NCBI GenBank assembly: GCA_016786765.1
Contig: JAEUUZ010000003.1
Location: 248,001-312,000 of the forward strand
DNA: 64,000 bases
Direction of reading: 5' to 3'
From: Chitinophagales bacterium
Lineage (GTDB): Bacteria; Bacteroidota; Bacteroidia; Chitinophagales; LD1
Part shown: in pieces, positions 40,632 to 58,524 of the stretch
How positions within the stretch are numbered: the first letter of the stretch is position 1
Layout: each line of letters begins with the position of its first letter
Translations under genes and position numbers: made by a program
Notes under the pieces: model-generated
Databases searched by the model: none
What the model was told of the DNA's origin: nothing
What the model saw: only the letters and a program-made list of their open reading frames with translations

Positions 40632-41672
40632 TTATTTCACCTCCTTCAAAAATTCCAAGTATGTTGGGAAGTGATCGGAATACCCTTGATTATATATGTT
40701 TCCGTCCCAAGTGCGTAGCGGATAACCTTTAAAACGTCCCGTTTTTTGCACCATAAAATCGCGATTGAAAATGCGTGCCGTGCGATAAAACACACCGTCT
40801 TGTTGCTTGTTTAAAAAGCCGTAAGAAATAATGATTTGATCGAATAAATTCCATGCATCGTTATAGGCCAATGTGCCAATGCCTTGTTTGTAAAAATCGA
40901 TCCATGGGTTAAACATACCCCCCGGTTTTACTTGCTCCGGCTTTTGCTTAGCGTTCAGTACCTTTGCAACACTTGGACTTATGGGGTCATCATTTAAGTC
41001 GCCCATCACTATACATTTTGTTTCCGGGTTGATAGCCATCAATGAATCGATTACTTTTTTGCATACCCCTGCGGCTATTGCTCTTCCCGGAGCAGAGGCT
41101 TCTTCGCCTCCTCTTCGTGAGGGCCAGTGGTTAACAAATACGTGTAAGGGTTCGCCCATATAATTGCCCCAAACCCACAATACATCTCTGGTTTTTCGCG
41201 CTTTCCCATCTTCCATTTTAAGCGGAACATTAAGCGGCTTGCTTCCTGTTACGGTAAAATATTTTGGGTTGTACATTAAGGCTACATCAACGCCACGCTC
41301 ATCGGGCGAATCGTAGTGCACGATTTTGTAATTGCGCGCCTTCAATTTGGGGCTGTTCACCAAATCATAAAGCACCGATTCGTTTTCAATTTCCGCAGAA
41401 CCGAATATCGAGAGTCCATCCGGAGAGTCTTCAATCCCTATTTTAGATAATACATCCGAGAGGCGTTCAATTTTATCGGTATATACACTGGTATTATAAT
41501 GACGAGGACCGTTTGGTGTAAATTCTTCGTCACTCACATTCGGTTGATCGATGGTGTCGTAAAAGTTTTCCAAGTTATAGAAGCCGATAATGCCAATTTT
41601 GTAGGCTTTTGTTTTTTGCGCAAAGGTAGCGATCGAAAAAAGGCAAAACAGACTTAATGTGATGTGACGCAT
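40632..41672 (-). CDS. Endonuclease/exonuclease/phosphatase family protein, exported
   Basis: 346 residues with a signal peptide (LSLFCLFSIATFAQ). The fold's catalytic blocks are visible: GFYNLENFYD, GSAEIENE (metal-binding Glu), HVFVNHWPSRRGGE (His), VMGDLNDDP (Asp/Asn), and a closing SDHFPTYLEF (Asp-His pair). Members cut nucleic acids or phosphoesters. It diverges from a TonB receptor / DUF5689 pair; in Bacteroidota such nucleases often sit beside those two gene types, pointing to scavenging of extracellular nucleic acid or phosphate. That role is inferred. Confidence 0.9.
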   Translation of the reverse strand: MRHITLSLFCLFSIATFAQKTKAYKIGIIGFYNLENFYDTIDQPNVSDEEFTPNGPRHYNTSVYTDKIERLSDVLSKIGIEDSPDGLSIFGSAEIENESVLYDLVNSPKLKARNYKIVHYDSPDERGVDVALMYNPKYFTVTGSKPLNVPLKMEDGKARKTRDVLWVWGNYMGEPLHVFVNHWPSRRGGEEASAPGRAIAAGVCKKVIDSLMAINPETKCIVMGDLNDDPISPSVAKVLNAKQKPEQVKPGGMFNPWIDFYKQGIGTLAYNDAWNLFDQIIISYGFLNKQQDGVFYRTARIFNRDFMVQKTGRFKGYPLRTWDGNIYNQGYSDHFPTYLEFLKEVK

Positions 41673-41760: not shown

Positions 41761-41789
41761 TTTGTTTTTAAGCAAATTAGTTAGTTTTG
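41761..41789 (+). promoter_or_regulatory. Predicted promoter of the TonB receptor / metal cluster
   Basis: TTTG (41761-41764), 17-base spacer, TAGTTTTG (41782-41789, full match to TAnnTTTG), 24 bases before the ATG at 41814. Its position rules out the in-frame TTG at 41787 as the start. Confidence 0.55.
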
Positions 41790-41813: not shown

Positions 41814-44618
41814 ATGAAATTTAGAATCTACGCTATTTATACATGCTGTCTGTTGTTGGTATCAACGGCTGTTCAAGCACAGAATATGTATGAAGACAAA
41901 GCTTTTCAGACATCATTTATAACTGAATGTACCAATGGCGCTTCGAAGGATGGAGCGTTCACTCCGGATGAAGCCGCAATCTATTGCAACTGCGCTTTTG
42001 AGAAAATGAAGGCAAAAAATTTGAACTTAGACGACATTAAGCGAATGCAAGACCCTTCTTCAGACGCCTTCAAGGAAATTGTGCTTCCATGTGTAGAAGA
42101 AGCCAAGGGTTCTGCCGCGAAAGGCATTAATACCGATTCCTTATCAACAAATGCCAACAATGCTAATGCCGATAACATTCCTGTGATTAATTTATCGGAA
42201 TCGGAAACAGAAAGTGCTACAAATACACAAAATGTGGCCGGTATTCTTTCTTCTTCCAATGATGTGTTTCAGTCGAATGCTACATTTCAATTATCATCAG
42301 GGGGGTACCACTATCGTGGCTACACCGGAGATAGAATAAATGTAATGATCAATGGTATTTCCATGAATGATGCCGAAAGTGGACAGGTGCTTTGGAACGA
42401 GTGGGGCGGATTGAATGATATGTTTCGGGGTCGTCAAACTACTGTTGGATTAGCTCATTCAACATTTACCTTTGGTGGAATAGGAGGGGCTTTAATGTTC
42501 GATTCACGTGCAGGGCACTTGTTTAAAGGGTTGAATGCCGGTTATGCTATTACAAACCAACGCTACCGCAATAGAGTGAATGCAAGTTACGTGAGCGGCT
42601 TCCTAAAAGGGAATTGGGCAGTTGCCGGAGCTTTTGTGCGCAGATGGGCAGAGAAAGGCTATGAGCCGGGCACCTATTATGATGGCTATTCCTATTTCTT
42701 CTCTGTTGAAAAATTGATTCAAAACAAGCATAGTATTTCGTTTACAACCTTTGGTGCGCCTACGCGTTCAGCTCGAGCAGCTTATTCTAACAAAGAAATG
42801 CAAGCCTTAGCCAAAGATCGATTCTACAATCCGGCTTGGGGTTACCAAAATGGACAAATTCGAAATGCGAACGAAACACGAACATTTATTCCTGTTTTTA
42901 TTCTGACTTACGAAGGAAAATTTAGTCCGAAAACAAATTTAGTTGCATCGGGCTCTTATCAATTCGGAACCAACAAATATTCGGGGTTAGATTGGTATAA
43001 CGCCCAAAATCCTTCCCCTGATTATTACAAAAACTTGCCAAGTTTAATTGAAGATCCCGAAGCGAGTGCTGCGGCTAAAGCCTATTTGGAATCTCACCCG
43101 GAAATGTTACAAATCCAATGGGATAGAATATATGAAGTGAACAGAAACATTAATGATTCAGTAGTTAATGCCAACGGAAGCGGACAAACAGTGTACGGAA
43201 AATGGTCAAGGTATATAGTTTCTGACCGGGTAGAACAATCGCAAGCAGGGCAGTTTAACGCCATTGTTAATCACACTATTGACGATCATTTTTCTGTCAA
43301 CGGAGGTCTTTCTTATCAATTCGATAAATCGCGCTATTACAAACAAGTGCGCGATTTGTTGGGAGGTGATTTCTTTGTTAATGTGAATCAGTTTGCGGAG
43401 CGCGATTTCCCCGGAAACGACACGGCTAATCAACTCAATCTCGACAAGCCTAATCAAATCTTAAAAGTTGGTGATACTTATGGCTACGATTATTACAGTA
43501 CTTTGCACAAAGCATCTGCATGGGGTCAGGCCTATGTTAAGTACAGTCGTATTGAAGCTTTTTTGGGTGCTAATATCTCCAATAGCTATTTTTGGCGAAC
43601 CGGTAATTTTACGAATGGCTTGTTTCCCACCGATTCTAAAGGTGATTCCAAAAAAATTAACTCGTTTAACTATGGTGTAAAAGGAGGTTTACAAGGGAAG
43701 ATTAACGGAAGAAATTATTTGTATGCGAATGCAATGTTTCAAACGATAGCGCCTACATTCCGCGATGCTTTTGTTTCTCCCATTACCCGCAATGTTGTGT
43801 TACCGGGGTTAAAAAGCGAAAAAGTATATAGCGTTGAGGCCGGCTACATTTATAAAGCACCGCGATTATCGGTTAAAGCCAACTTCTTCTATACCCAATT
43901 TTATGATGGAATTCAAAACTATACCTATTTCCACGATGAATACCGAACGCAGGTGAATTATTCGTTGAGCGGAATTAGCAAGCGCCATATTGGAGGGGAG
44001 CTAGGCGCCAATTGGGATATTTGGAAAGGTATTAGTGCAAGCTTTGTAGCCAATGTGGCCAAATACACCTATACTTCTCGTCCATCAGCCTATGTGACAC
44101 GCGATAATAATGCGCAAGTGTTAGAGCAAGAGAAAACGATTTATTTGAAAGATTTTAATGCCGGTAGAGGTCCACAAATGGCCTATTCGCTTGGTTTAAG
44201 ATATCGATCTCCACAGTTTTGGAACGTGGGCTTGAATTTGAATTATTTTGATTGGATGTATATTGAGGCAAGCCCGGCTAGACGAGTATCAGATGCCATT
44301 GTGGGTTTAGATCCAACATCACCTCATGGTCAAACAATCCTTGCGCAAGAAAAGTTGAAAGGACAGTTTACCATGGATCTACGAGGCGGGTATTCGTTAT
44401 TCATGAACAAGATGTTCCGATTTAAAGCAAAACAGCGGTTTTACCTTCAAATCAATTGGACGATTTCCAATATCACTAACAACAAAAATTTTGTTTTATA
44501 TGGCGGTGAGCAGTTGCGATTCGACTATGACGAAAAGAATGTAGATAAATTTGCTACACGTTACAAGTATGCACGCGGAATAGGCTATTTCGTGTCACTC
44601 AACTTCAGAATGCAATAG
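41814..44618 (+). CDS. TonB-dependent receptor with Cys-containing N-terminal domain
   Basis: 934 residues from the ATG at 41814, which opens a signal peptide (YAIYTCCLLLVSTAVQAQ). The mature N-terminus is unusual: a ~75-residue helical domain with four Cys (TECTNGAS, AAIYCNCAFEKM, VLPCVEEAK) where a CarboxypepD_reg domain is normally found. The plug follows (NDVFQSNATFQLSSGGYHYRGY, INVMINGISMNDAE) and then a large outer-membrane barrel ending in an aromatic strand (YFVSLNFRMQ). It takes up a substrate through the outer membrane with TonB energy. First gene of a plus-strand cluster that continues with DUF5689, CxGKC, MbnP and MbnH genes; the substrate may be a metal complex or a nucleic-acid-derived compound. 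Confidence 0.88.
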   Translation: MKFRIYAIYTCCLLLVSTAVQAQNMYEDKAFQTSFITECTNGASKDGAFTPDEAAIYCNCAFEKMKAKNLNLDDIKRMQDPSSDAFKEIVLPCVEEAKGSAAKGINTDSLSTNANNANADNIPVINLSESETESATNTQNVAGILSSSNDVFQSNATFQLSSGGYHYRGYTGDRINVMINGISMNDAESGQVLWNEWGGLNDMFRGRQTTVGLAHSTFTFGGIGGALMFDSRAGHLFKGLNAGYAITNQRYRNRVNASYVSGFLKGNWAVAGAFVRRWAEKGYEPGTYYDGYSYFFSVEKLIQNKHSISFTTFGAPTRSARAAYSNKEMQALAKDRFYNPAWGYQNGQIRNANETRTFIPVFILTYEGKFSPKTNLVASGSYQFGTNKYSGLDWYNAQNPSPDYYKNLPSLIEDPEASAAAKAYLESHPEMLQIQWDRIYEVNRNINDSVVNANGSGQTVYGKWSRYIVSDRVEQSQAGQFNAIVNHTIDDHFSVNGGLSYQFDKSRYYKQVRDLLGGDFFVNVNQFAERDFPGNDTANQLNLDKPNQILKVGDTYGYDYYSTLHKASAWGQAYVKYSRIEAFLGANISNSYFWRTGNFTNGLFPTDSKGDSKKINSFNYGVKGGLQGKINGRNYLYANAMFQTIAPTFRDAFVSPITRNVVLPGLKSEKVYSVEAGYIYKAPRLSVKANFFYTQFYDGIQNYTYFHDEYRTQVNYSLSGISKRHIGGELGANWDIWKGISASFVANVAKYTYTSRPSAYVTRDNNAQVLEQEKTIYLKDFNAGRGPQMAYSLGLRYRSPQFWNVGLNLNYFDWMYIEASPARRVSDAIVGLDPTSPHGQTILAQEKLKGQFTMDLRGGYSLFMNKMFRFKAKQRFYLQINWTISNITNNKNFVLYGGEQLRFDYDEKNVDKFATRYKYARGIGYFVSLNFRMQ

Positions 44619-44654
44619 TTTTTAAATAAATCGTTTATACTCAATATATTTATC

Positions 44655-46130
44655 ATGAAATTTCAAATCTCAAATATGCTTTTCAATCTTCGTAAAGTGG
44701 CTGTTGCCCTAACATTAGTAACCGCTTTGGGTGGTTGTGTTAAAGAAAAATTCGATACACCTCCTGTGGGTGGAGAAGACCCCGTAGGTATAGTGGCCAA
44801 TACTACAATCAAATCGTTGAAATCGCGCTATACTATTGGTGCTTCAACACCAGTGAAAGTTACAGATGATTTAATTATTTCGGGCATTGTGAATGCGGAC
44901 GATAAAGACGGGAACTTTTATAAAGTGATTACACTTCAAGATTCTACAGGTGGAATCCAAATTAAGGTAGACAATTCTTCGCTTAGTGGCGATTTTCCGG
45001 TAGGACGAAGAGTGTTTGTGAAATGTAAAGATTTGTTTTTAGGGGAATATTCCGGGTTAGTACAATTGGGTGGATATATCGATAATTCAGATGGCTATCC
45101 ACAATTGGGTTACGTAAGCAGTACTGTTGCGCAAGAAAAAATCTTAAAAGGTAAATGGGGGCTAACCGTTACGCCAATTCCGGTGTCTATAGCTACGCTT
45201 GACAATATTACCTATCAAAACATGCTCGTACAGTTTGATGATGTTCAGTTTGCTTGTGCCGATGTGTTTCAAACCTATGCCGATGTTAAAAATTTAGGCT
45301 CATTGAACAGAACAATTGAAGACTGTTCAGGGAATACCATTATTGCACGAACAAGTGGTTTTGCGCGTTTTGGTGGGGAGAAAACTCCAGGGGGCAAGTT
45401 AAAGGTATTGGGGGTTTTTACAGTTTATAAATCGGGAAGTACTTGGACTAAACAATTGGGGTTGAGAAACACGAATGATGTTGTTCAAACAGGATCTACA
45501 CGTTGCGATGGAACAACGATTGGAAGTTCTGCAGATATTTCGATTTCAACGATTCGCGGATTATATGCAGGATCAGATGTTGATGCTCCTTGTGCTCGAG
45601 TGGTTAAGGGTGTAGTGGTTGCCGATAATACACAGTCTAACTTTGATACGCGAACAATTTTTGTTCAGGATGCTACCGGAGGTATTGCTGTTTATGTTGG
45701 CTCTGTACATAACTTTGCTGTTGGCGATTCTGTTGAGGTGTCTACATCTGGCGCAACAATTACAGAGTTTAAAGGATTGTTAGAATTGAAAACAAGCATT
45801 AGCTATGTGACTAAAATTTCTTCAACAACAGCCAAAGCAAGAAAACTTACTGTGGCTCAAATTTTAGCCGATTTCGAAAATTACGAGTCTACATTAGTTA
45901 CCATCGATAACGCAACATTAAGTGGCAATGGTGGTATTTATGGCGGCAATGTTACATTAACTGATGGTACATCGGGTTCTTTAACACTGTACACCAAAAC
46001 CGGAACTACACCTGCCACTTTCGCCACATCGACTTATCCAACACCCGGACCGAGTTCTGTTACAGGTGTATTACAGCAGTTTAATTCAACGTATCAAATT
46101 AGTATTCGAACTACAGCCGATATCCAATAA
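44655..46130 (+). CDS. DUF5689-domain lipoprotein
   Basis: 491 residues. Lipoprotein signal with the Cys at residue 28 (ALTLVTALGGC). The first half is the DUF5689 domain (NTTIKSLKSRY, VTDDLIISGIVNADDKDGNFYKVI, LQDSTGGIQIKVD); the second half holds an OB-fold-like segment of similar pattern (CARVVKGVVVADNTQSNF, FVQDATGGIAVYVG) and a third, weaker one. DUF5689 lipoproteins accompany TonB receptors in Bacteroidota and are thought to be their surface-exposed partners, like SusD for sugars. The 36-base gap to the receptor gene supports one operon. Ligand unknown. Confidence 0.88.
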   Translation: MKFQISNMLFNLRKVAVALTLVTALGGCVKEKFDTPPVGGEDPVGIVANTTIKSLKSRYTIGASTPVKVTDDLIISGIVNADDKDGNFYKVITLQDSTGGIQIKVDNSSLSGDFPVGRRVFVKCKDLFLGEYSGLVQLGGYIDNSDGYPQLGYVSSTVAQEKILKGKWGLTVTPIPVSIATLDNITYQNMLVQFDDVQFACADVFQTYADVKNLGSLNRTIEDCSGNTIIARTSGFARFGGEKTPGGKLKVLGVFTVYKSGSTWTKQLGLRNTNDVVQTGSTRCDGTTIGSSADISISTIRGLYAGSDVDAPCARVVKGVVVADNTQSNFDTRTIFVQDATGGIAVYVGSVHNFAVGDSVEVSTSGATITEFKGLLELKTSISYVTKISSTTAKARKLTVAQILADFENYESTLVTIDNATLSGNGGIYGGNVTLTDGTSGSLTLYTKTGTTPATFATSTYPTPGPSSVTGVLQQFNSTYQISIRTTADIQ

Positions 46131-46149
46131 TTGACACAAATCACTCAAC

Positions 46150-46157
46150 TAATTTTG
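46150..46157 (+). promoter_or_regulatory. -7 element upstream of the CxGKC gene
   Basis: TAATTTTG matches TAnnTTTG, 32 bases before the GTG start at 46190; a TTG lies at 46131, slightly close for a -33 box. It may allow the downstream metal genes to be expressed apart from the receptor pair. Confidence 0.4.
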
Positions 46158-46189
46158 GTTGTAATAAAAATCTGTATTACTATTGTATT

Positions 46190-46579
46190 GTGAAAAAGGG
46201 AATTACAATTGTTTTAACCTCAGCTATACTGCTTGTCTCATTTAGTAAGGCAATTGTATTTGGTGCATTTTTATTGAATCAATCTGCTATTGCAAAAACA
46301 TTGTGTGAAAACCGTTCTCAGCCTAAAAAGCATTGTGACGGAAAGTGTTACCTCAAAAAAGAAATGACAAAGGATGAAAAGAAGGATAAAACAAATTCCC
46401 CTTTTTCCGTTAATGACATTCTTCAAGAATTTGTTTGGGTGAATGCTCCAATTACTGTTCATATTCCCTCTAGTGTGTTTTTTGCACCTGCATCATCGCT
46501 TGTTTATGCTAGCCACGTAGAACAAGTTTTTTCTCAATATTACCACTCAGAAATTCCTCATCCTCCTTCCATAGTTTGA
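46190..46579 (+). CDS. Small membrane protein with CxGKC cysteine motif
   Basis: 129 residues, GTG start (46190), which gives MKKGITIVLTSAILLV; no nearer ATG fits. An N-terminal hydrophobic segment (about 6-35) is followed by LCENRSQPKKHCDGKCYLKK with C39, C49 and C53, then a charged linker and a His-containing tail. I recall this L-C-x-N-x-x-x-P-x-x-x-C-x-G-K-C-x-L pattern from small uncharacterised Bacteroidota proteins near metal and TonB genes. Three conserved cysteines suggest metal binding, Cu or Fe, but this is inference. It lies between the DUF5689 lipoprotein and a Cys-rich beta-barrel protein. Confidence 0.75.
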   Translation: MKKGITIVLTSAILLVSFSKAIVFGAFLLNQSAIAKTLCENRSQPKKHCDGKCYLKKEMTKDEKKDKTNSPFSVNDILQEFVWVNAPITVHIPSSVFFAPASSLVYASHVEQVFSQYYHSEIPHPPSIV

Positions 46580-46656
46580 TTTTTGTTTGGGAGTGAACTC
46601 CCTTACCTGCATCATTGATGTAGGTTAAAAGCTTAATCATCCAAATATGGTAATCA

Positions 46657-47562
46657 GTGAAAAAATTATTGCTTTTCGCTTGTATTAGTAGCTTAACGAT
46701 AGCACTACAAGCTCAAAGTTGTTGTACCGCCAGCAGTTGCAGCAATACAGGTTGTTCAGACCAATCGGTTAACGGAATGGCTTCTTTTATAGGTGTGCGC
46801 TATGCCACTTCTAGCAGTCGTTTTCATCTTTCTTCTATGTTTGGAGAAAATCAAGCGATACGGTATAGTGACAACTTTCACTCCGTTGCTTTTACGGGGC
46901 GCTGGTCGGTGAAAGATTATCTTGCTTTCCAAGCAGAAGTGCCGTTTGCTTTCAACAAGCGAAAAGGGTCGGAAAACGCCTTTTACACCGGTTTAAGCGA
47001 TGTGAGTTTTGGTGTTACCGGCAAATTGCCAACCTTTGTGCACCACAATACTAAACATAAGGTTTACTTGGGGTGTATGATTTATGCACCAACTGGAGAG
47101 TTCCGAAAATCAATTGATACCACCGGGTTTGCACCATTGATTCAACAAGGTGTTGGCGCTTGGGCCTTTATTCCAAATATCGAATACAATTTGTTTGTGA
47201 AGCGTTTCGGGTTTTCTGTAGGAGCATCTTATCGTTATGCATTGCACAATCTCGATCATTTGCAAATTGGAGGAAAATCGCAATTATGGATAAAAGGCAT
47301 TTTCGATAAGCAAGTATTTGATAGCCACATCATTCCATCTCTGGCATTTATTGGAGAATACTATCAGCAAAATAAATTTCATACTACAGTTGTAGATCTC
47401 AGTGGCGGCTATGTGGTATCTACCGAAGCAGGACTCGATTTCAAATTTATCGATAAGTATGCCATTGGTCTGAAATACCGACAGCCGCTCGCTTCCAAGT
47501 TAGCTAAAGGAAAACTTCAGCCCTATGGCACTTTTGCCATTCAATTCAACTATTTTTTATAA
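46657..47562 (+). CDS. Outer-membrane beta-barrel protein with Cys-rich N-terminus
   Basis: 301 residues, GTG start at 46657. Signal peptide (LLLFACISSLTIALQAQ), then directly a cysteine cluster SCCTASSCSNTGCSD (five Cys within 13 residues), followed by alternating-residue strands of a transporter-like barrel (GVRYATSSSRFHLSS, HSVAFTGRWSVKDYLAFQAEVPF, FGFSVGASYRYALH, KYAIGLKYRQP) ending in Phe-Leu. The Cys cluster at the mature N-terminus looks like a thiolate metal site, for example for Cu(I). It is followed after 24 bases by the MbnP-like gene, so they are likely one operon. The metal is not shown by sequence alone. Confidence 0.82.
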   Translation: MKKLLLFACISSLTIALQAQSCCTASSCSNTGCSDQSVNGMASFIGVRYATSSSRFHLSSMFGENQAIRYSDNFHSVAFTGRWSVKDYLAFQAEVPFAFNKRKGSENAFYTGLSDVSFGVTGKLPTFVHHNTKHKVYLGCMIYAPTGEFRKSIDTTGFAPLIQQGVGAWAFIPNIEYNLFVKRFGFSVGASYRYALHNLDHLQIGGKSQLWIKGIFDKQVFDSHIIPSLAFIGEYYQQNKFHTTVVDLSGGYVVSTEAGLDFKFIDKYAIGLKYRQPLASKLAKGKLQPYGTFAIQFNYFL

Positions 47563-47586
47563 AATCTTAAAATAAAAACAACAAAA

Positions 47587-48414
47587 ATGAAAACAACAAA
47601 ACTTATCCTCGGCTTATTTGCCATCGCAACACTTGCTTTGTCTTCTTGTAAAAAAGACAACAACACATCCGATATTGATCCAAACAGAAAAGGAGACATT
47701 GGATTGCATTTCGACAACCGCGCAGGAGCTCAAGATTTAGTATTGAATACGCAAACATATCAGAATGCTCTAGGGCAAGATGTAAACCTGTCGATGTTTA
47801 AATACTATATCAGCAACATTAAATTGATTAATAAGGATGGATCAACATTTACCTACCCTAAAGATCAAAGTTATTTTTTAGTAAATGAGGCAGATGCAAA
47901 CACCCAAGAAATTGAGTTAACTAATGTTCCGGAGGGCGACTATACCGGTGTTACCTTTACTGTTGGTGTTGATAGCTTGAAAAGCACAGCGCCTTTAGCA
48001 GAAAGAACAGGTGTTTTAGATCCAGCAGTGGGCGCAGCCGGTATGTATTGGATGTGGAACTCCGGTTACATCTTCATGAAAATGGAAGGAACATCACCTG
48101 CCGCTCCGTTAGATACAGCATCTGGAACAAGACCATTCTTTTACCACATTGGCTTGTTTGGAGGATACTCTACGCCAACAATAAACAACATTAAAACAGT
48201 TACTGTTTCTTTTGGTTCATCAGTAGCATCCGTTCGTCAAGCAAAAACATCTGCTCCTGAAGCACATTTATATGTTGATGCCTTGAAAGTACTAAACGGA
48301 ACAACGAACATCAATATTGCGAATTATCCGGTGGTAATGGCTAATCCGTATTCTGCGAATATTGCTAACAACTACAAAGAAATGTTCAGCTTAGATCACG
48401 TACACAACGATTAA
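47587..48414 (+). CDS. MbnP-family lipoprotein (putative copper-binding)
   Basis: 275 residues. Lipoprotein signal (LFAIATLALSSC, Cys 21). The mature part has the blocks I associate with MbnP: LSMFKYYISNIKLINKDGS, YFLVNEADANTQEIEL, VGVDSLKSTAPLAERTGVLDP, MYWMWNSGYIFMKMEG, and a closing EMFSLDHVHND with His. In methanotrophs MbnP binds copper after its partner MbnH turns a tryptophan into kynurenine; Trp residues are present in YWMWNSG. An MbnH-like dihaem gene follows here too, after a short gap that carries a strong hairpin and a decayed second mbnP piece. No methanobactin genes are near. Family fairly sure; copper role inferred. Confidence 0.88.
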   Translation: MKTTKLILGLFAIATLALSSCKKDNNTSDIDPNRKGDIGLHFDNRAGAQDLVLNTQTYQNALGQDVNLSMFKYYISNIKLINKDGSTFTYPKDQSYFLVNEADANTQEIELTNVPEGDYTGVTFTVGVDSLKSTAPLAERTGVLDPAVGAAGMYWMWNSGYIFMKMEGTSPAAPLDTASGTRPFFYHIGLFGGYSTPTINNIKTVTVSFGSSVASVRQAKTSAPEAHLYVDALKVLNGTTNINIANYPVVMANPYSANIANNYKEMFSLDHVHND

Positions 48415-48422
48415 TTTACAAG

Positions 48423-48455
48423 ATTCGTGCAGGCAAATCTCTTGCCTGCACGAAT
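48423..48455 (+). terminator. Strong hairpin after mbnP
   Basis: A perfect 14-bp stem (48423-48436 with 48442-48455) with a 5-base loop. There is no long T run after it, so it may be a partial terminator or an RNA-stabilising element that sets the mbnP:mbnH ratio. Confidence 0.65.
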
Positions 48456-48513
48456 ACTTATAAAAATGAATAATAAGCAGCAGGTTCTCGTTCAAAATTA
48501 AACGGAACAAGAA

Positions 48514-48640
48514 TATAGTTTGAAAACAGTAACTGTTTCTTTTAATGGAAGAGCAGTAGTCTTTCGCCAAAACAAAGCTAGTATATACGCATTATTGGTG
48601 TATATCGATCCACTAAAACTGCTAAGTAGTTCTTTAACTT
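48514..48640 (+). pseudogene. Decayed fragment of a second mbnP-like gene
   Basis: In frame from 48520 the translation KTVTVSFNGRAVVFRQ ... YALLVYIDPLKLL aligns without gaps to KTVTVSFGSSVASVRQ ... EAHLYVDALKVL in MbnP (about 16 of 34 identical by eye; the first seven residues are the same). There is no start codon, signal peptide or proper C-terminus. It is likely the remains of an old tandem duplicate of mbnP, wedged between mbnP and the mbnH-like gene. Confidence 0.7.
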
Positions 48641-48691
48641 TTATTTTCTTTAGAGTATATTCAACATTAATTCATATTCAAAAACAAAGCA

Positions 48692-49708
48692 ATGCGAGCG
48701 TTTGGTTTCATTTGTGTAGCGCTATTACTTGTAGTGGCAGGTTGTAAGAAAGAGGACGCAAAAACTCCTTTTGAAGGATTTGCTTCTCCGGCTAATTTCC
48801 CACAACCTACCTATAATTTTGCAGGTAATGCGGTAACTGAGCCCGGTTTTTTACTCGGAAAAAAATTGTTTTATGATGGACGTCTTTCGCGCGATGGTTC
48901 AATCTCTTGTGCGTCTTGCCACATTTCGTTCTCTGCTTTTTCGCATGTAGACCATTCTGTAAGTCATGGTATTGACGATCGTTTGGGGATACGCAACGCA
49001 CCTGCCATTCAGAATATGGCATGGGAGCGATTTTTCTTTTGGGATGGTGGTGTTTTTGATCTTGATTTATTTTCGATCAATCCTATTCAAAACCACGAGG
49101 AAATGGACGATACTATTCCAAATGTTATAGCAAAACTAAAAGCAGATCCCGAATATGTTCGCCAGTTCAAAGCTGCTTTTGGAACAGAAGATGTAACCCC
49201 AACCCGAATGTTTCAAGCACTTTCTCAGTTTATGTGTATGTTAGTTTCTAACGACTCTAAATACGATAAAGTATTGAAAGGGACAGCCACGTTTACATCG
49301 GCTGAAAACCTAGGCAAAGTAGCCTTTGAACAAAAATGCGCTTCTTGTCATAGCGGAATTTTATTTACCGATCGTACATTTAAAAACAACGGCTTGTCGC
49401 TTACAGGAGATTTGGGGCGTGCACGCGTAACACTAAACCCCAAAGATGATCATTGTTTCAAGGTGCCGAGCCTAAGAAATATTGCTAAAACTAACCCTTA
49501 TATGCACGATGGGCGATTTTCAACATTGGAGCGTGTGCTCGATCATTATGCTTCCGGAGTGCAAAATACCCCAACATTAGATACCTTATTAAAGCAAAAC
49601 GGTCAGTTAGGAATAGCATTAACAAATGATGAGAAAGCAAACATCATTCTGTTTCTAAATACACTAACGGATGAAACATTTATCAAAAATCCACTCTTCG
49701 CACAGTAA
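48692..49708 (+). CDS. MbnH-like dihaem cytochrome c peroxidase family lipoprotein
   Basis: 338 residues. Lipoprotein signal (FICVALLLVVAGC, Cys 18). Two c-type haem motifs: C73-ASC76-H77 and C216-ASC219-H220, with the family blocks GKKLFYDGRLSRDGSISCASCH, RNAPAIQNMAWERFFFWDGG and VPSLRNIAKTNPYMHDGRF. This is the MauG/cytochrome c peroxidase superfamily, and next to an MbnP gene it is best read as MbnH, the enzyme that oxidises a tryptophan in MbnP. An ordinary hydrogen-peroxide-reducing peroxidase is the alternative. The start at 48692 gives a good lipobox. A small His-rich lipoprotein follows 13 bases later. Confidence 0.88.
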   Translation: MRAFGFICVALLLVVAGCKKEDAKTPFEGFASPANFPQPTYNFAGNAVTEPGFLLGKKLFYDGRLSRDGSISCASCHISFSAFSHVDHSVSHGIDDRLGIRNAPAIQNMAWERFFFWDGGVFDLDLFSINPIQNHEEMDDTIPNVIAKLKADPEYVRQFKAAFGTEDVTPTRMFQALSQFMCMLVSNDSKYDKVLKGTATFTSAENLGKVAFEQKCASCHSGILFTDRTFKNNGLSLTGDLGRARVTLNPKDDHCFKVPSLRNIAKTNPYMHDGRFSTLERVLDHYASGVQNTPTLDTLLKQNGQLGIALTNDEKANIILFLNTLTDETFIKNPLFAQ

Positions 49709-49721
49709 AAAATAAAGCATT

Positions 49722-50114
49722 ATGAAATTTAAAACATCAATCACCATCGCTATTCTTTTCCTTGTATTTATTGGTGTGCAGTCGTGTAAGAAAACCGAAA
49801 ACGGTGCACCGGTTGTAAATATTATCGAACCTGAAATTGGAGATACTGTTTACAGTGGTTCCGATGTGCATTTCCATGGAACAGCATCTGACGATGATGC
49901 GCTTCACGAAGGTAAATTACAGTTACTTCGAGCCTCAGATGATTCTCTAATTACGCAACTTTCTGTAAGCGTTCATGGCAAAAAATCTTACACATTTCAT
50001 GAGCACCTTACTGTGCAAACAAATGTTGCAATTTTGGCTAAAGCCAAAGCTACGTTTTCCGATCATGACGATGCTATTACTTCCAAAGAAGTACTTATTC
50101 AGTTAATGCCGTAA
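49722..50114 (+). CDS. Small His-rich lipoprotein (DUF4625-like)
   Basis: 130 residues. Lipoprotein signal (IAILFLVFIGVQSC, Cys 22), then an immunoglobulin-like region APVVNIIEPEIGDTVYSGSDVHFHGTASDDDALHEGKLQL. His residues are frequent and partly paired (HFHG, LHEG, VHGKK, FHEH, DHDD), a pattern of surface metal sites. The family resemblance to DUF4625 is tentative. It is the last gene of the metal cluster, 13 bases behind the MbnH-like gene, and its 3' end overlaps the convergent wbqC-like gene by 20 bases. Confidence 0.75.
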   Translation: MKFKTSITIAILFLVFIGVQSCKKTENGAPVVNIIEPEIGDTVYSGSDVHFHGTASDDDALHEGKLQLLRASDDSLITQLSVSVHGKKSYTFHEHLTVQTNVAILAKAKATFSDHDDAITSKEVLIQLMP

Positions 50115-58407: not shown

Positions 58408-58498
58408 GGGCGTGCTCCACTAAGAAGCGGGCCGCGCTGTCCGCTGCAATCTTTGCCTCTCGGAATCGGCAAAGGATTTCCGCTTCCATCGCTCACGC
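58408..58498. repeat. GC-rich intergenic repeat-like element
   Basis: A sharply GC-rich island in AT-rich surroundings, with the core CTGTCCGCTGCAATCTTTGC and an inverted pair CTTTGCC (58451-58457) / GGCAAAG (58468-58474), then GGATTTCCGCTTCCATCGCT. From memory, very similar stretches are scattered in many Bacteroidota genomes as intergenic repeats. A 78-codon open frame that crosses it is not a gene. With the next element it fills the 322-base gap between the SdrD-like and ORF6N genes. Confidence 0.6.
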
Positions 58499-58524
58499 AA
58501 ACATTGTGCAAGTAAGTTTATTTT

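Follow-up and report, generated by a model that had tools for sequence, protein, structure and literature searches.

A probable copper-sensing leader peptide of the CutF/CruR kind ahead of an MbnP/MbnH module in Bacteroidota, next to a separate TonB-DUF5689 unit

The closest described relatives of the system treated here are CutF and CruR, small proteins encoded ahead of copper genes. CutF of Rhodobacter capsulatus is reported to carry a CxxxC motif and a Pro-rich end, to be exported cotranslationally and to sense copper in the periplasm, and copper raises CutO (PMC9973294). CruR (Bp2923, a DUF2946 protein) of Bordetella pertussis is encoded by a small first open reading frame (ORF) with CXXC and RAPP; the downstream genes are expressed without copper, while copper relieves the pause and Rho then halts transcription (PMC9426467), and the arrest has been shown in vitro (PMC12992588). 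MbnP/MbnH genes are known behind CruR-type ORFs in Proteobacteria (PMC9426467) and are also known outside methanobactin loci (PMC3621798). Here, we analyzed a 64,000-nucleotide (nt) stretch of the genome of a Chitinophagales bacterium (the window), in which an earlier interpretation made from the letters alone (the sequence-only reading) had taken seven genes for one outer-membrane copper locus. Our results point instead to two transcription units side by side, the first most likely a DNA-uptake unit and the second (46150-50114) a copper module under a probable leader peptide of the CutF/CruR kind, and we put the probability of this interpretation at about 0.62. The second unit consists of the leader, which is a CxGxC protein, a Cys-tagged barrel, MbnP, MbnH and a lipoprotein.

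The leader gene (46190-46579, + strand, GTG start) encodes 129 amino acids and contains the CDGKC motif that had been pointed out before (residues 49-53, codons at 46334-46348, + strand) as well as a Pro-Pro pair three residues before the stop (residues 125-126, codons at 46562-46567, + strand). The protein has no Pfam match at expectation values (E) up to 0.1. Among 28 aligned proteins of the family, which are about 25% identical, only C39, C49, G51, C53, P125 and P126 are invariant, and the Pfam names obtained for 1-3 of the 28 (TGF_beta, DAN, DUF6769 and others, E 0.0006 to 1) were set aside as sporadic hits driven by the cysteines. A profile search found 98 members, all with CxGxC, in 103 loci, which comprise 43 MbnP loci (the 40 best-scoring places of a longer list and three from the window genome) and 60 further loci chosen manually, mostly top-scoring ones. 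In 97 of the 98 members, Pro-Pro stands 1-8 residues ahead of the stop, the exception being a truncated copy (L073) for which an in-frame TAG is listed, and in the 97 the distance from CxGxC to Pro-Pro is 66.6 +/- 1.9 residues (61-71), with 71 in the window copy. The stretch between the two motifs is not conserved in sequence, but its length is. The residue before Pro-Pro is mostly His, Arg or Lys and the preceding one mostly Phe (72/97), and an N-terminal hydrophobic segment was found in 94 of the 98 leaders with a Kyte-Doolittle window.

Since the first family profile included the tail, the search was repeated with a profile of the N-terminal part only as a blind test. This profile was positive in 108 of 197 class genomes, and in 40 loci picked down its list, with ten duplicates dropped before counting, Pro-Pro was found at the end of all 61 complete new members, 1-7 residues before the stop and with a spacing from CxGxC of 65.6 +/- 1.9 (62-71, n = 61). 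Rerun within the 103 loci, it again gave 97 of 98. Among 354 other genes for 90-220 amino acids in the loci, only 6 had Pro-Pro in the last nine residues, and two of these six resemble another leader type. L005 (10980-11435, + strand) and L122 (1885-2265, - strand), the latter beside a gene of the resistance-nodulation-division (RND) type, each encode a small protein that starts hydrophobic and has the tail IWQPP; the two probably represent another Bacteroidota leader type. The CxGxC family itself occurs in 122 of 296 genomes of the phylum, and its named carriers include Flavobacterium glaciei, F. psychrolimnae, Chryseobacterium vrystaatense and a Taibaiella metagenome-assembled genome. This kind of probable leader is thus widespread among Bacteroidota; descriptions of it from the phylum are scarce.

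All four Pro codons (CCT, CCA, CCG and CCC) are used freely at both Pro-Pro positions across the 97 members, which places the selection on the protein and not on an RNA word. It could be imagined that the conserved end of the leader gene acts as RNA, for example through pairing of CCUCC with a ribosome binding site, and that the peptide is incidental, and the Pro codons of the window copy, CCTCCT, would suit such pairing. However, the cysteines and the His, Arg or Lys before Pro-Pro are kept at the protein level and the Pro codons vary, for which reason we rejected an RNA-level role of these codons and regard this explanation as very remote.

The family combines the motif and putative export segment of CutF with the kind of genes found behind CruR. 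Like CutF-like proteins, the leader is a small, putatively exported protein of <150 amino acids with copper-type genes behind it, and the published filters for such proteins (<150 amino acids, Pro-Pro in the last 15 residues, a next gene on the same strand at <=1000 nt and a Cys motif) pick up the window copy with its 129 amino acids, Pro-Pro at 125-126, 77-nt gap and CDGKC (PMC9973294). Unlike in CutF, the motif of the family is CxGxC, accompanied by a Cys ten residues before it, and the tail is F[H/R/K]PP; the usual next genes of the family encode MbnP, the barrel or a TonB receptor, whereas that of CutF is a multicopper oxidase and list D of the same paper mostly has efflux proteins (PMC9973294). 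That list also holds many Bacteroidota proteins, which are unnamed in the main text, and the main text makes no mention of Mbn genes (PMC9973294); our family may be among the unnamed entries of list D.

Like CruR, the leader is encoded by the first ORF of a copper unit, and a Cys motif and a Pro-Pro pair that is followed by three more residues stand at a conserved spacing; the genes behind members of the family are also of the same kinds, namely those for a TonB receptor, PepSY_TM, Sco and MbnPH. In contrast to CruR, which is signal-independent and has CXXC and RAPP 45 residues apart, the family has CxGxC, F[H/R/K]PP (HPP in the window copy) and a spacing of about 66. DUF2946 (PF11162) matched none of the 28 aligned members at E up to 1 and nothing in the window genome, and membership of the leader in that family was rejected. 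A C-terminal Pro-Pro as putative arrest module in a small, probably exported ORF before controlled genes is also shared with the RAPP/RGPP arrest peptides (PMC12992588, PMC10951233, PMC10987492), but the basic residue stands directly before Pro-Pro in our family and two before it in theirs. The RAPP/RGPP survey reports copper-type upstream ORFs (uORFs) in a range of lineages, with Bacillota and Bacteroidota among the exceptions, and a family with an F[H/R/K]PP tail would escape its search. Literature searches, in which subscription journals and supplements were not covered, did not bring up any paper that describes a CxGxC/HPP leader from Bacteroidota.

The pattern TAnnTTTG, which we take to be the Bacteroidota -7 element, lies upstream of 62 of the 98 leaders compared to 27 of 309 genes inside tight runs, and before 40 of 60 leaders of the blind set. 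It precedes the gene behind the leader in only 3 of 93 cases, compared to 45 of 214 other codirectional gaps of 40-220 nt; promoter pairs with a -33 element were too few for use (14/98). Since the leader has its own element and the genes behind it do not, the copper genes would depend on the start before the leader. In the window, the pattern is present at 41782-41789 (TAGTTTTG, + strand), before the TonB gene, and at 46150-46157 (TAATTTTG, + strand), 40 nt before the leader gene, and it is absent from the scanned gaps before the genes for the barrel, MbnP, MbnH and the last lipoprotein.

A copper-type gene (MbnP, MbnH, the barrel, TonB with PepSY_TM, SCO1 or YtkA) is found within three genes downstream of 93 of the 98 leaders and of 52 of the 61 in the blind set. 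The next gene encodes a TonB receptor in 34 of the 98 cases (directly followed by PepSY_TM in 10), MbnP in 29, a YtkA-like lipoprotein and then TonB in 9, the barrel in 7 and other proteins in the remainder; in the blind set it encodes the barrel in 27 cases, MbnP in 11, a YtkA-like protein in 8, TonB in 6 and another protein in 9. In four loci (L118, L120, L121 and L122), a leader-YtkA-TonB unit is immediately followed by a second leader with MbnP-MbnH. Two tandem CxGxC leaders were also seen before a single TonB gene, in L113 (7253-8176) and L127 (6972-7976). Viewed from the 43 MbnP loci, MbnH is a neighbor in 43, CxGxC and then MbnP within three genes occur in 24 and the barrel in 22, a recurrence beyond chance. 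The expectation that neighbors are conserved with mbnP/mbnH thus holds for the CxGxC protein and the barrel but not for the TonB, DUF5689 and last lipoprotein genes of the window, whose products are singleton clusters among the 103 loci, without counterparts beside MbnP elsewhere.

The sequence-only reading had the CxGKC protein hand over Cu(I). A membrane-anchored Cu(I) chaperone or reductase partner for the barrel and MbnP, with Pro-Pro as just a part of the protein, would agree with the three conserved cysteines, the hydrophobic segment and the co-occurrence with MbnP and the Cys-tagged barrel. It is at odds with a CxGxC-Pro-Pro stretch kept in length and not in sequence, with Pro-Pro so close to the stop in all members but one, and with the scarcity of promoter elements before the genes behind the leader. 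Moreover, the same protein heads TonB-PepSY, SCO1 and YtkA units as well, always first in the run, as CruR and CutF are. We consider such a carrier unlikely and prefer a leader because of the fixed Pro-Pro near the stop, the fixed spacing, the promoter-like element of its own and the first place in the unit. The CxGxC protein is, judging from its sequence and placement, probably a copper-sensing leader like CutF and CruR rather than a copper carrier.

In the mechanism that we propose, the N-terminal hydrophobic segment would target the leader to the inner membrane during its synthesis. With the ribosome at Pro-Pro before the stop, about 66 residues (71 for the window copy) would separate this pair from CxGxC, which would lie outside SecYEG and on the periplasmic side. 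An extended chain of about 50 residues is reported to span the distance from the peptidyl-transferase center to the periplasmic mouth of SecYEG (PMC7513700), and since 66 residues exceed this span, CxGxC would be placed just outside the membrane, whereas the 45 residues of CruR do not reach. When there is little copper, the ribosome would pause at HPP and the downstream genes would stay expressed. Periplasmic Cu(I) on the CxGxC cysteines would end the pause and let translation finish, after which Rho, or RNA structure covering the next start, would turn off the downstream genes. We infer that the leader senses copper in the periplasm and, because the downstream genes look like acquisition genes, propose repression by copper. 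For the family as a whole, we see roughly even odds that it is a widespread, Bacteroidota-own family of copper-sensing arrest peptides, with an F[H/R/K]PP tail and a ruler of about 66 residues, that controls MbnP/MbnH, Cys-tagged channel, TonB-PepSY and SCO1 units.

Several observations weigh against a copper-sensing leader. Copper raises expression through CutF and lowers it through CruR, and the direction proposed here was guessed from the type of genes controlled. The tail is [F][H/R/K]PP and not the proven RAPP, and the Pro-rich end of CutF is reported to have caused no strong stall when tested in E. coli. The CxGxC cysteines could bind a metal other than copper, and the copper label of the second unit comes from homology. 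CxGxC followed by MbnP is lacking in the gene calls of 19 of the 43 MbnP loci; our gene caller, which simply took the longest ORF, missed some genes, and in two of the 19 (L039 and L040) an MbnP gene missed by the caller lies right behind CxGxC.

The RNA behind the leader adds to these points. The gap between the leader and barrel genes of the window contains two hairpins (46589-46602 and 46605-46625, + strand; folding z -2.3) without a U-tract, and our scan found no intrinsic terminator there. The gaps behind leaders have a mean folding z of -2.5 (n = 76) compared to -1.5 in control gaps (n = 80; p 0.0014). However, neither intrinsic terminators (9/86 gaps versus 34/321 controls) nor simple long hairpins (22/86 versus 89/321) are in excess, so that the signal consists of lower overall folding energy only, and an intrinsic attenuator behind the leader was rejected because terminators are no commoner there than in control gaps.

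The identity of the MbnP-like lipoprotein (47587-48414, + strand) is confirmed by a match to PF20243 of 185 bits (cut-off 27, E 1.6e-54) and by conservation of the copper-site Trp, Met and His. In a pairwise alignment, M153, the WxW residues W155 and W157, and H187 coincide with the same residues of 7l6g, and conservation among Bacteroidota MbnPs is 53/53 for the first Trp of WxW, 52/53 for the second, 52/53 for the Met two residues before the first Trp and 53/53 for the His. The copper site of Methylosinus MbnP reportedly consists of His, Met, solvent and a kynurenine made from the first Trp, and since these residues are kept, those of the copper site are present here. Structural matches of the AlphaFold2 model (pLDDT 91.6) with E < 0.001 are confined to 7l6g chains (E 1e-10, TM-score about 0.5). 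The score against TIGR04052 (the MbnP_like_WxW equivalog) is 52 bits, below the curated 140-bit cut-off, and the four-Cys motif of the TIGR04052 type is absent from the window protein, whose only Cys is the lipid anchor.

The MbnH-like gene (48692-49708, + strand) adjoins that for MbnP. Its product is a dihaem CCP/MauG protein by Pfam and a lipoprotein, as had been claimed, with CASCH at residues 73 and 216; both CxxCH haem sites are kept in 57/57 MbnH proteins. The first-ranked NCBIfam family is that of MbnH (TIGR04039, E 1.1e-58, 199 bits, under the model cut-off of 362.85), and the closest solved relative is 6e1c (E 1.6e-43), which we take to be MbnH. By homology, MbnH would oxidize the first Trp of the MbnP WxW to give a kynurenine copper site. 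The pair resembles that of Methylosinus trichosporium (7l6g, 6e1c) in keeping WxW, Met and His next to an adjacent dihaem partner. It differs in that both proteins are lipoproteins and MbnP lacks the four-Cys motif, and the window has an added leader and barrel and no methanobactin genes. The methanobactin enzyme family MbnB (PF05114) had no match in the whole window genome. The idea of a copper locus without methanobactin is supported for the MbnP/MbnH pair, but the TonB and DUF5689 genes are not members of it. A degenerate MbnP copy, corresponding to residues 201-239, lies between the two genes (48517-48633, + strand; 16/39 identical, E 1e-6) as the remnant of a duplication. The window genome also has two further MbnP-MbnH pairs without a CxGxC leader (L004, 5361-6050, and L005, 9241-9996). 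The first stands behind genes that resemble those for an extracytoplasmic function (ECF) sigma factor and a small partner, an arrangement that recurs in L069 and L071, while the MbnP of the second has no WxW pattern.

The outer-membrane barrel (46657-47562, + strand) is predicted to have 12 strands, and its model (pLDDT 82.9, with a low-confidence N-terminal Cys part) has FapF and the COG4313 channel as its closest structural matches (Foldseek, 5o67 with E 1.5e-12, and 4rl8). The Cys cluster behind the signal peptide, SCCTASSCSNTGC, contains C22, C23, C28 and C33, that is, four Cys in 12 residues and not five within 13 as previously counted, C9 being in the signal peptide. A CDxCGC motif near the mature N terminus characterizes the family (C23 in 30/31, the C26-type Cys in 29/31 and C28 in 26/31). 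The window copy has no Pfam match at E up to 0.1, and an assignment to a known efflux family was rejected, since neither this copy nor a relative matched Pfam and the fold leads to FapF/COG4313 channels only. As the survey of MbnP loci demonstrates, a Cys-tagged outer-membrane barrel is a recurrent partner of MbnP. The last gene of the run (49722-50114, + strand) encodes a small lipoprotein with 7 His in 130 residues and a DUF4625 score of 25.7 bits, just under the cut-off of 27, and is not a recurrent neighbor of MbnP in the 103 loci.

The first unit starts with the TonB-dependent receptor gene (41814-44618, + strand; PF00593, PF07715 just below cut-off), whose product has the four Cys N-terminal to the plug that had been described (C39, C58, C60 and C93), and continues with the equally confirmed DUF5689 lipoprotein gene (44655-46130, + strand; PF18942, E 2e-94), which also matches the NCBIfam M949_1556 family below cut-off (E 9e-40). 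A secreted endonuclease/exonuclease/phosphatase is encoded next to the unit (40632-41672, - strand; PF19580, E 3e-115). Relatives of the receptor occur in 27 of 149 class genomes, and in 20 loci of such relatives DUF5689 adjoins the receptor in 17 and an Exo_endo_phos_3 endonuclease is near it in 14, while CxGxC, MbnP, MbnH and the barrel were found in none. The four-Cys segment (41814-42160, + strand) is in none of the 20 relatives' receptors, which have other, mostly carboxypeptidase-like, sequence in its place, and it has no relative among the surveyed genes. A separate Rfam scan gave a Flavo-1 RNA at 58426-58503 (- strand, 54.1 bits) as the sole match in the window.

That all seven genes belong to a single operon for copper acquisition at the outer membrane, in which the TonB receptor would be the importer, is suggested by their common strand, by gaps of 24-105 nt as called and by 6 of 60 other loci (L118, L120, L121, L122, L125 and L152) in which MbnP has a copper-type TonB receptor next to it. 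ORF and family scans confirm the seven genes on the + strand in the order given in the sequence-only reading. Nevertheless, the window receptor falls outside the cluster of copper-type TonB receptors, its relatives travel with DUF5689 and the endonuclease and not with copper genes, and the promoter-like element at 46150 divides the run. On the strength of the neighbor survey and the promoter-like elements we discarded the single operon, which we regard as improbable, in favor of two units. In Riemerella anatipestifer, a TonB-type outer-membrane protein and a DUF5689 protein form the pair RA0C_RS04915/RA0C_RS04920, without which the bacterium is reported to be untransformable (PMC8459023). The first unit of the window has the same arrangement, a likeness of domains and gene order only, and its receptor has the four-Cys segment in the place of a carboxypeptidase-like region of relatives. 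By this analogy, the TonB receptor and DUF5689 lipoprotein are most likely a DNA binding/uptake pair and not parts of a copper route.

In conclusion, the TonB-DUF5689 genes should be left out of any count of copper genes, while the genes behind them make up a module headed by a probable leader. Copper sensing and uptake are poorly known in Bacteroidota. If our interpretation is true, the leader family would have the role in this phylum that DUF2946/CruR has in Proteobacteria, and it would close the gap that the RAPP/RGPP uORF survey reports for Bacteroidota. A leader whose sensor lies at a fixed distance from the pause would be a nascent chain that reads a metal outside the cytoplasm, and the family would provide a copper-specific marker for many operons of unknown function, such as those with the barrel, MbnP or the YtkA-like lipoprotein.

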